DNA of 64,000 nt, taken from the NCBI GenBank assembly GCA_903813345.2, contig CAIIXF020000009.1:9912030-9976029 (forward strand), in the 5' to 3' direction. A program made the position numbers and the translations under genes. The notes under the pieces are model-generated. The model saw only the letters and a program-made list of their open reading frames with translations, did not search any database and had not been told where the DNA came from. This stretch comes from Owenia fusiformis. Lineage: Eukaryota; Annelida; Polychaeta; Sabellida; Oweniidae. Each line of letters begins with the position of its first letter. The first letter of the stretch is position 1. Shown piece after piece: positions 34,801-52,800 of this stretch.

Positions 34801-37800
34801 AGTGGATATATTTGAAATGAAAGTATTTAAAAATATACCTCTCTCTATTTGCTGTACATGTAAATTGCTAAATATGTATGTACAGTACATTGAAAAAAAC
34901 TTGAAATAAGTTTTGTGTTTTAATATTGACATTTTCTAAGTGTCTTTGATTGTAAAAGTGACATTTATAAAGCCCATACAAAAATAGAAATTACTAGCTT
35001 AAATGTACTACCCTTTTAAGCTTTCTTGTTTTTCTATGAAGAATTCTCGGAGTTTAGCCAAATGTAATTTTGATACAAAAAATGAGAACAAATACCATGG
35101 TTGCCTTGTCTTTTTTGAAAAGGTTATCTCTATGGGCTTAACTCATTTTATACTCGTCAAAGTGACATTTTTGAATAACACCCTTTTATACAATAGAACC
35201 TCTGAAGTTGAACCCCTCCACGTGAAATGAATACATTTTTACAGGTCCAACTTTATTCCTGGTGAGCTATTGCAATCACTCACTTGTCCATCTGTCTGTC
35301 CATCAGTCCGTCTGTCTGTCTGTCCGTCTGTCAACAATTGGCCAGTTTTAAAACCTCTGTCAATAGGATTCCTGTTTTAAGTTATTTTTGTTCAACATCA
35401 ATATAGAAAATCCCCCTATGCTTCCTGGTTCGAAAGCTCGCCTATTTTCAAAATGGCCGCCATTTTTGTCTCGCGAAATTCACTTTTAGACCATTTGCTT
35501 TAAAACCTGTGTCAATAGGATTCCCGTTTTAAGTTATATTTGTTCAACATCAATACAGAAAACTCCCCTATGACTCCTGGTTCAAAAGCTCGCCTATTTT
35601 CAAAATGGTCGCCATTTTTGTCTTTGCGAAATTCACTTATGGTCTATTTCCTAACTTTACAAATAATTCCAGGTGTCCTGCATTGTAAAAAGCCATGTCA
35701 CTGTAAACAGTAGTTGTATGAAATAATTTTGTTACAAAAATTGGCAAAAATTACACCCATTTTTTTTATTTTCTGCCATTTTAGCCATCGTTCACCTTTT
35801 ATGAGAAATACTTCCTTATTTTGATGGATTGTCTTCAAAATCAGTTTTCCAGCATTGACGACAGAATTTCATTTCTACCGCGACCAAATTTTTTGCTTCC
35901 TTAAAGGAGAATTAGTGCATGTACTTAGCTATTTACCCCAGAAATATTGGGATATTTTGATTAGCTCACATATTTTCTTGCATAATCCTGCAGGAAATGC
36001 TGAAATATAGACCCTTTGTCATACTTTTTGTATTACGAATAAAAAGAATGTCCAAAGTTGAAACTCAAATCTTTTCTTTAACCTTGTGTCAGATATAAGA
36101 CCTAACTTGATAGCTATGGGCTTTCCAGCAGAGAAGTTAGAGGGAGTCTATCGGAACCATATAGAAGATGTGGTCAGGTAAGAAATATATATAATGAAAC
36201 CTTTAAAGTTGAACATTTAGAAGTGGAACACCTATGTTAGTAGAACACTTTTCAGAGTCCAAAGACAATCTGACTTAATGTTTAATGTCCTTCTATGAGT
36301 AACACCTTTCAGAGTCCAAAGACGATCTGAATTATTGTTAAATGAACCTTTTGTAGAACATCTCCTTAGTGGAACACCTTTTAGAGGTACTAAAAGTGTT
36401 CAACTAACAGGTTTTACTGTACATGCTGTGTATAATGTATGAAGATGCATATGTATTTTAAAGGCAGAATCAGATCTATAGGGGTGAAAAAATTACAAGC
36501 AACATGTACAATTGACCTATTAATCTATTCTTTACAATCTCAAATACAATATCTCCCAAAAGATTCATGATAAGTTATAAATTGGTGAAGTTATTATGGA
36601 TTCAAAGTTCAAAAATGGGTGAAATATGTTTAAATTCTCCAAAATAATAAGAATGGTAACCATACATAATAGAAAAATGACACCTTATTGAAAAAATCTT
36701 TAGTTTTCCTGAAATAATAAATAAAGTGTGCACTATGGGGATTTTTAGAGAATAGACATGACAAGGCCGACATGAGCCAGACATTTTCTAAAATCGAAAC
36801 AATTTTTTGTTGGCCTGCTCGCTAGATCTGATTCTCTCTTTTATGCCTCTACACCCAAATAGACCTATTGTAATATACCGTTTTCTCAATTCATTTAAAT
36901 AGAAATAGTATATTTTTCAAACAAAATGCAAAATTTTTAATTTTTAATGCAAAATTGGTATGTGTATTAGGAAATCAATGAATCACTGAGACTTAATTTT
37001 TTCATAATTGAATTTCAATTGCCTTGTAAGTGTGTTTGCCTTCCTTATGATGAAAGATCAATTAAGCGTCACTAAGTCTTATCTTGTGATATGCACTTGA
37101 TTTTTGAATAATTATGCCATGACCACAAACGATGACATTTGTTATGGTTTTCAACTTTTTGTTGACGGTGTTCAGTGATTGGTTTTGACAGTTGGAGTTT
37201 GGCATCTGTAACATATGGCAGGTAGTGACATTTTTCATGTCAATGTCTAATGTTTGATAATGATTTTATAATTTAATTAATATTTTCTCTCTTTGTAGAT
37301 TTTTAGAACAGAAGCACAAAGATCATTATAAAGTCTACAATTTGTGAGTATTATAAATTAAGATTAAGAGTCCCTTATACCTTAAGTATACGTATAAACC
37401 CCTAAAAACAATAACCAAAATAATATTTGTGTAACAACGGGTGGATTGACTTATTAAAACACATAGAAAACAAAACATATTAATTCTGGATCACCATTTT
37501 GCACTTAAAAAAACGTTTATTTTTCGTGGAATAAAAACTATATTAAGTTCTTGTCATAATAGCTCACCAAAAAATAATGAAATGTATATTTACTTCATTT
37601 TATGTATATTTACTTCTATTGAACTATTCTTGTCAACTTTATTATGTTACTTGATCCCTTATTTTCAAAGATGGGCATTCATCCATTTCTCGTTTATATT
37701 GCTTCAAGGTGTTTTAATTTTATTTCTAGATGTTCAGAAAGAGAGTACGACGAGACGAAATTCCACTCTCGCGTAGCAAAATATGCATTTGATGACCATC

Positions 37801-49800: not shown

Positions 49801-52800
49801 AGGTTTAAATAACAGGATGCAACTAATTAGAAAAAAGCTTATCTATTTTTAGCTTTATTTTTATAGTGAAACTGCAGCAAATAAAAACAGAATGATATTA
49901 TTCTTGGTTAGCTTGATCTGATAAGTTGCTATAAAAAGATATGTCAGGTCAGGGTGACATGAGTCTATTTAGGATGCGTCAAATGTCAAAACAAGTTCTT
50001 CCAGAGATGAAGAAGTTTTCTTTGACTTTTGCTATTGTTTTTCTTGCATCTTTTGTTTCTTACTGGAACAGGTTAGTCGGAAGAATTATATTTAAGTTAC
50101 AGTAAAACATGTACGTCTCATCTGAGTGTCCAATTTGAAGATCTGATTAGGTTTTGAGCATGCTGGGTAATTCACTTTGAATTTTTTCTAGAAATAAAAA
50201 AGAAAGTGTGACATATATCAACGTGTGTCTTTTTTCATATTTTTTTATTTTATTTATTTATTTATTTATAATGGTCAGTCTTACAATTCAATAAAATAAA
50301 AATAAATTAATAACAATTTTACCAAGCCCACCTTGGGCTTTTTAACCATTGTTAACTATAGGAAATATTAAATTAATGCACAAAAATCAATATCACATGT
50401 TGTAGGTGAATTGCCTTCTCCGCACAAAACCCATCTTAATAAATTTAACAATCTTACAGATATGTTCCCTAAAAAGAAATTCAATTTTGCTACCACCATT
50501 ATCCAAATTTTAAAAATTTTAAAATCTCATGTGTCATATTTGACATTGAATTTTTGCTTTGACAAATAAAGTGTATTTCTTCCGTTGAATGTTAAAAGAC
50601 TAATTGGGTCCATAAAGAATTTGATCAAACATAATTAAAGGGTAATGCAGTTGTTGGCCTGTTAGGTCAAGTGACTTTTTTCACCTGTGCCTCAAGATTT
50701 ATATCAAGATTCTAGTTTTATACCTTTCATTGAATCTTTATTGTCTCTTTGACTTTTTAATACCCTTCATGCACATCTATGTTTTTCAGGGCCGAACAGG
50801 TGTGATGATCTGTGCGTATCTGCTGCATCGGGGAAAGTTCCAGGATGTCGATGAAGTTCTTCAGTTTTATGGCGTGGCAAGGACGAGAGATGAAAAAGTA
50901 ATGAGACTATTGTAGTTTCTACTCATTTTTTCTCAACCTTTATTTTTTGACAATAGGAAGGCTAAATTACATGTTTTAAGAGGATGTGTACAATGTGAAG
51001 ACGCAGAATCATGCAGGTCCTCTGAGGATTAGTTCACCACTTCATAGTATTTATGTGTTTGATTGAGTATAAAGGTATAGGGGGAAAAGTTGTAGTGAGG
51101 TCCTGGAAAAACCAATAATAGACGTTTCCGATAAATCGTGCCCTCTTTTGATCCATCAGGGAAACTATAACTTATTGGCTAGATTGATGATGTCATTGGT
51201 TGTAGGTAGCAAACTGCCCATTCAAAAATGGTATTAACTTTTTGCTAATTTTATAAAGTACAGCCTATGACATCATCAATCTAGCCAATATATTGTGGTT
51301 TCTCTGATGGATCAAAAGATGGCACGATTTATCGGAAACGTCTATTGAGACCAGTGAGATACTAATTCCTGGGGGTCATAATATACCAATTGAATTTTTG
51401 AAGTTCTCTAAAAACATGTAGCTTTATTTGCAATAATAATTTTGCAATGATAATTCACCTCAAATGCATAAACAATCTATTTTATTTGGATGAATGAAAA
51501 ATCTGAAAATTATCCAGATAAATGTCGGATACATTCTAGAATCAAACAGATACATGATCTCAGGTTACTTCAGTGGGGAATGAATTTATAATACACCAAT
51601 GATTTCAGTTTTTATGTCACTACCAGAAATGGTGACATTTTGTTTTCCAACATTTAGTTTGTTAGTTGGTGTTTGGTCATTGGTGTTCGGCATTCAGTGT
51701 CTGTAACAAACGGCAGGTCGTGACACTGCATGTTAATGCCTTGTCTGTTAATTTAGTTCTCACTTTATCAGATGCATCTAAGACCAGTCTCCGAAAGCGT
51801 GTTTTTAACCTGTTTTATGTGATCACAAGATAAAAATGATATTTTCTTTTCTTTCAGGGTGTGACTATACCCAGTCAGCGACGCTATGTGCAGTACTATG
51901 GACAATTAATAAAACATAACTTAACATACCATTGTGTACCCCTGCTACTACAGGCTATCAAGTTTGAAACTCTGCCGTTGTATAACAGTGGAACCTGCAG
52001 TAAGTCTCCTATGTCTGATGGGTCAAAATCAATATGCCTGCGGGTCAAAGTCAATATGTCTGTGGGTCAAAGTCAATATGTCTATGGGTCAAAGTCAATA
52101 TGTCTATGGGTCAAAGTCAATATGTCTGTGGGTCAAAGTCAATATGTCTATGGGTCAAAGTCAATATGTCCATGGGTCAAAATCAATATGTCTATGGGTC
52201 AAAGTCAATATGTCTGTGGGTCAAAGTCAATATGTCTGTGGGTCAAAGTCAATATGTCTGTGGGTCAAAGTCAATATGTCTGTGGGTCAAAGTCAATATG
52301 TTTGTGGGTCAAAGTCAATATTTGTGGGTCAAAGTCAATATGTCTGTGGGTCAAAATCAATATGCCTGCGGGTCAAAGTCAATATGTCTGTGGGTCAAAG
52401 TCAATATGTCTCTGGGTCAAAGTCAATATGTCTCTGGGTCAAAGTCAATATGACTGTGGGTCAAAGTCAATGTGTCTCTGGGTCAAAGTCAATATGGCTG
52501 TGGGTCAAACTCGGCATGCCTGTGGGTCAAAGTCAGCATGCCTTTGGGTAAAAGTCAACATAGCTCTGGGTCAAAATCAACATGCCTGTGGGTCAACATC
52601 GCTGTGAGTCAAAGTCAACAAGCCTGTGGGTCAACGTCAACATGCCTGTGGGTGAAAGTCAACATGTTAATGGCTCAAAGTCTGAATATGCCTATGACTC
52701 ACAACAAGTGATGTTTGTGATAACTAAATGAATATACCTAAGCAAATTCAAGAAAGTTTATTTTGATAAATAAAAAGTAAAAGATCTGAAAGGAACTTCA

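Follow-up and report, generated by a model that had tools for sequence, protein, structure and literature searches.

PTEN gene structure in the window

The window analyzed here is a 64,000-nt stretch of the genome of the annelid Owenia fusiformis (GenBank assembly GCA_903813345.2, contig CAIIXF020000009.1, positions 9,912,030 to 9,976,029 of the forward strand; G000:C9:9912030-9976029 in our genome-wide searches, which cover 498 Mb in 525 contigs). If the contigs follow the lexical order of chromosome names, as their lengths suggest, the window lies on chromosome 6, and the 38 forkhead matches of the genome fall on chromosomes 1, 2, 3, 5, 6, 7, 8, 11 and 12 and on no other, the nine to which PMC9539403 assigns the Owenia Fox genes. 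It contains a gene for the phosphatase PTEN with nine coding exons, in which the fourth intron runs through the catalytic CX5R loop. Exons were placed by eye and then checked by script for splice sites and frame; all introns (8/8) are GT-AG and the exons join into a single open frame. The gene is laid out as follows, with positions counted from the first letter of the window:

19814..19895, + strand: coding exon 1, with two adjacent ATGs; ends in phase 1, donor GTATCCTTT
19896..36092, + strand: intron 1, 16,197 bp, U12-type (minor) by its signals
36093..36177, + strand: exon 2, ends in phase 2
37299..37343, + strand: exon 3, ends in phase 2
37730..37904, + strand: exon 4, codons 70-128, ends HCKAGK in phase 0
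37905..50789, + strand: intron 4, 12,885 bp, GTAAGA...TTTTTCAG, parts K128 from G129
50790..50897, + strand: exon 5, codons 129-164, begins GRTG, 108 nt, phase 0/0
51858..51999, + strand: exon 6, ends in phase 1
52898..53064, + strand: exon 7, ends in phase 0
53757..53957, + strand: exon 8, ends in phase 0
54380..54652, + strand: exon 9 with the stop codon, C-terminus ...EVTHV

Counted from the first of the two adjacent ATGs, the protein has 425 amino acids; the second ATG gives a numbering equal to that of the human protein and is used throughout. The best solved relative of the spliced product is human PTEN (7jvx, E 9.9e-145, query 4-386, 63% identity), and the alignment continues without a gap across the junction of exons 4 and 5. 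The spliced loop reads HCKAGKGRTG and lies inside the N-terminal phosphatase domain, which is followed by a C2 domain (PF10409, E 7.9e-31). The PDZ ligand motif is X-S/T-X-V, and the C-terminal VTHV fits it. The gene is thus an ordinary and apparently functional PTEN.

Intron positions relative to human PTEN

The original prediction, made from the letters of the window, was that the catalytic loop is split between K128 and G129 by a long intron, so that the nucleophile Cys124 and the catalytic Arg130 are encoded by different exons. Both statements were borne out: exon 4 ends HCKAGK, exon 5 begins GRTG, and between them, at codon 128/129 in phase 0, is a 12,885-bp intron with GT-AG ends. The first seven introns fall at coding nucleotides 79/80, 164/165, 209/210, 384/385, 492/493, 634/635 and 801/802, and the last was placed by alignment at human 1026/1027. 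For the human exon borders, including intron 4 at 253/254, we rely on what we take them to be, as the literature searched did not yield them. Measured against these presumed borders, seven of the eight Owenia intron positions are shared with human PTEN, as are the HCKAGKGRTG loop and the C2 domain. The two genes differ in that the human intron at 253/254 is absent from Owenia, where exon 4 runs unbroken through that place, while Owenia has the intron at 384/385. The claim that human intron 4 is missing and that the remaining introns all match human ones in position was therefore upheld, with the human side assumed.

Splicing signals and repeat content of intron 4

Splice sites were compared with the consensus sequences, namely a GTRAGT-like donor with a pyrimidine-rich acceptor for the major type, and a [AG]TATCCTT donor with a TTCCTTAAC branch for the minor type. 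Intron 4 conforms to the major (U2) type (GTAAGA...ATGTTTTTCAG); its donor AAA/GTAAGA and acceptor CTATGTTTTTCAG/GG (a slash marks the splice site) are similar to the splice sites of its major-type neighbours in the gene. A U12 type was rejected for this intron, with a donor matching at 2/7 positions and a branch-like word at 6/9.

Much of the intron consists of repeats. These features, none assigned a strand, are:

38915..41677: 89-bp satellite, 31 copies (Tandem Repeats Finder)
42384..43159: dispersed repeat, length about 0.8 kb; 39 other places listed match it at 80-92% identity (40 of 2125 candidates scored)
46446..48191: young dispersed repeat, 1.75 kb or longer; 16 other places listed match it over that length at 94-98% identity (40 of 769 candidates scored)
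49210..49742: imperfect palindrome, 81% identical to its own reverse complement

The whole-genome search listed 31 matches to the 89-bp satellite, all of them inside this intron, and the left end of the young dispersed repeat lies at or to the left of 46446. Satellites and dispersed repeats account for a good part of the length of intron 4, which would have reached 12.9 kb in good part through satellite expansion and repeat insertion.

Taken together, we consider it highly likely that intron 4 is an ordinary major-type intron, constitutively spliced and grown by repeats, at a position in PTEN that is not a human one. It would be spliced out constitutively, leaving an intact HCKAGKGRTG loop, and because introns leave the RNA before translation, the enzyme should be unaffected by an intron at this point of its loop.

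Split motifs in other phosphatase genes of the same genome

The original prediction stressed that the intron lies inside the most constrained loop of the enzyme. The idea that an intron there is in itself surprising did not withstand comparison with other genes of the same genome, where the motif is also cut in auxilin, in classical protein tyrosine phosphatase (PTP) genes, in dual-specificity phosphatase (DSP)-type genes and in a CDC14-like gene. A close parallel is the auxilin gene (3n0a, E 4.2e-46; C1:38.77-38.79 Mb), whose motif is cut HCL/DGKAG:

G000 C1:38774320-38786768, minus strand: auxilin motif intron, 12,449 bp, phase 0 (loci L001, L019, L049)

Auxilin shares with PTEN the PTEN-family domain and a long phase 0 intron in the motif, whereas the cut falls at the equivalent of 125/126 and the motif, HCLDGKAG, has Gly at the place of PTEN's catalytic Arg. 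The motif is unbroken in a VSP/TPTE2-like gene (9c49, E 1.6e-58) and in a third paralogue whose best solved relative is PTEN and which we infer to be tensin-like. Hence two of four PTEN-family genes have a cut motif, versus the ~0.10 introns expected per gene at PTEN's own intron density over the 16 junctions that lie between codons 124 (Cys) and 130 (Arg).

For the classical PTP genes, the genome search with PF00102 gave 99 matches. We fetched all 18 that end at profile position 176-182, and all 18 (18/18) stop directly after the catalytic Cys codon, the set having been picked because the match stops in the motif and so being selected for a break. Among these exons, 17 of the 18 end CAY TGC AG/GT, which keeps the Cys and splits the next codon (Ser, AG/Y) in phase 2, and the eighteenth (L034) likewise ends right after HC. 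On the acceptor side, each of the eight fetched (8/8) resumes with the missing Ser base followed by [AP]-G-x-G-R (GCN GGN or CCA GGN). Another 11 PF00102 matches, starting no later than position 165 and ending no earlier than 185, run through the motif; one of them contains three stops. As in PTEN, the intron of these PTP genes separates the nucleophile Cys from the Arg, and it differs in cutting the codon after Cys in phase 2 and not at 128/129. The introns treated in PMC5336234 are those of FN3 and not any in the catalytic loop.

A DSP-type gene on C3 has the Cys codon itself split, TG/T (donor L038, acceptor L039); a second on C4 looks cut likewise, judged by the acceptor side only, and on C1 a gene that we take to be CDC14-like is cut two codons after Cys in phase 1, again on the acceptor side only. 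Two further DSP-type loci (L053, L054) are unbroken in the motif. The DSPc search gave 23 matches, of which 16 extend across profile positions 76-90 and 3 begin at 81-82, these 3 being the two cut DSP-type genes and the CDC14-like gene. In the genes read, introns occupy four of the 16 Cys-Arg codon junctions and one site within the Cys codon, five positions in all, and the other motif-cut genes use positions other than PTEN's. Five positions in one motif are curious, and we considered whether it attracts introns, but the counts do not establish an excess over chance (16/23 DSPc matches pass through it and 3 start there). The loci with split motifs outside the PTEN family are:

L020-L037 and L040-L047: shared post-Cys intron in classical PTP genes
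L038, L039, L051 and L052: motif-cut DSP-type and CDC14-like genes

Gain or loss of the 128/129 intron

Relative to human PTEN, the original prediction had invoked one intron loss and one gain, and the paralogues in the same genome make this plausible. Both the auxilin and the tensin-like gene have a phase 0 intron at the PTEN-equivalent of 252/253, one nucleotide off the presumed human intron 4; this shared intron suggests, and does not prove, that an intron near codons 84/85 is old and was lost from Owenia PTEN. The VSP-like gene has introns at 88/89, 153/154, 214/215 and 296/297 and one past the aligned part, and shares no PTEN intron position in the stretch read. Since the 128/129 intron is missing from all three paralogues read (3/3: auxilin, tensin-like and VSP-like), it is probably younger than the split of the PTEN family. 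On this evidence, the 128/129 intron would have been inserted after the family split, and the older intron near codons 84/85 would have been lost.

Alternatively, the 128/129 intron may be old in PTEN and have been lost on the way to vertebrates, a difference in age only, which is compatible with an ordinary, constitutively spliced intron. This is quite possible, while short of probable: the Owenia genome is described as conserved in PMC9977687, and the other seven introns of the gene are shared with human PTEN (at the presumed human positions), whereas absence from 3/3 paralogues tells only against an intron that predates the family split. A search for PTEN relatives in collections of viral contigs and genome contigs found none. 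Of the literature searched for the 128/129 intron, on PTEN intron evolution, human exon borders and PTP intron positions, the useful sources were PMC3136494 on honey bee PTEN and PMC2821301 on auxilin and GAK. PMC3136494 describes the PTEN genes of honey bee, fly, mosquito, worm and human as not sharing their intron/exon organization; insect PTEN resembles Owenia PTEN in that enzyme and motif are alike and the intron/exon organization is altered, and it differs in that the honey bee gene has eleven exons.

Alternatives to an ordinary, constitutively spliced intron

Several points weigh against the reading of intron 4 as ordinary and constitutively spliced. With ~0.10 introns expected across the loop, its position is a mildly unusual one for any gene taken singly, so that the place is uncommon, not improbable. 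Its constitutive splicing is something that we infer from the sequence, and skipping of exon 5, which is symmetric and 108 nt long, would keep the frame. In addition, PMC2821301 describes all eight introns of the PTEN-like region as kept in place between vertebrate GAK and auxilin.

The original prediction proposed that the intron could act as a regulatory switch, being retained, or exon 5 being skipped, in some tissues to give a catalytically dead PTEN. The consequences of such events were as foreseen: a retained intron would contribute 14 codons before a stop is reached, and loss of exon 5 stays in frame. Insect PTEN, moreover, is alternatively spliced, and all three honey bee isoforms retain the phosphatase domain, according to PMC3136494. 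The switch itself found no support, however, since the splice sites are normal and much of the length is made of repeats. Duplicates of exons 4, 5 and 6 were sought in 19001-56000; apart from the exons themselves this gave weak matches only, none better than E 0.019, and the top one contains a stop; Rfam at gathering scores gave no match across the window, and ten chosen intronic reading frames gave no Pfam match over the cut-off. These searches thus turned up neither an alternative exon nor a known RNA family or nested gene in intron 4. That one exon is symmetric says little, because the loss of an exon would inactivate most enzymes, and as comparable losses are expected in many genes, the effects of retention or skipping are no sign of regulation. 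We consider a switch of this kind very unlikely. A particular form of it, in which some tissue or stage makes an exon 5-skipped PTEN without G129-K164 that is dead, keeps the C2 domain and PDZ ligand and is dominant-negative by splicing alone, is something we would hardly expect to exist.

It is highly improbable that intron 4 arose as an introner or transposon, that is, as a mobile unit inserted with its own splice sites. The intron is indeed repeat-rich, but the repeats found lie within it. For neither the first 595 bp nor the last 1,047 bp was a dispersed match listed, and its outer 300 bp share no direct or inverted 10-mer. We rejected introner status, as the intron ends were not found dispersed at many loci in a search that skips very common words. 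Lastly, an assembly artefact, or an exon missed between K128 and G129, might be suspected in so long and repeat-rich a stretch and is extremely improbable, given a window without any N or other gap, a single set of nine PTEN exons listed by the genome search, their collinear order and the gapless human alignment over the junction, which together make the merging of two loci unlikely.

Intron 1 and neighboring features

Compared with intron 4, the gene's first intron appears the better candidate for splicing control. Its donor GTATCCTTT matches the minor-intron consensus at 7/7 positions, and a branch-like TTCTTTAAC, whose branch A precedes the 3′ splice site by about 11 nt, matches at 8/9, so that donor, branch and distance all agree with a minor (U12) intron. 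The other seven PTEN introns reach 2-4 of 7 at the donor and at most 6 of 9 at the branch. Within the window, GTATCCTT was found twice on the + strand, and a branch-like word lies within 22 nt before the AG at 9 of 3420 AG sites. By these signals PTEN intron 1 would be U12-type, and human PTEN presumably also has a minor intron at this place. PMC6717393 puts the optimal branch distance in minor introns at 11-13 nt from the 3′ end; the minor-intron literature searched, this paper included, does not name PTEN in the main text.

Several other features of the window are recorded here:

33598-34536: 17-bp array of about 55 copies, in PTEN intron 1
52010-52682: 22-bp tandem array, starting 11 nt past the end of PTEN exon 6
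51840-52607: the exon 6 frame, open through most of the 22-bp array (255 codons)
1680-2515, + strand: mitochondrial calcium uniporter exons (PF04678, E 4.8e-33; the second exon below cut-off)
9958-10161, - strand: RNA polymerase III RPC4 exon (PF05132, E 3.6e-15)

Implications

Overall, the observation that was originally made on this gene is confirmed and its interpretation partly supported: the 128/129 intron is a normal intron at an uncommon place. With the CX5R motif cut at five positions in one genome, caution is due in reading function into the place of an intron, and Owenia PTEN offers a clear case against inferring function from an intron's position in a conserved motif. The 128/129 intron also provides a clean marker by which the turnover of introns in a tumour-suppressor gene could be dated, and if the splicing of PTEN is sensitive anywhere, the U12-type intron 1 would be the better place to look.

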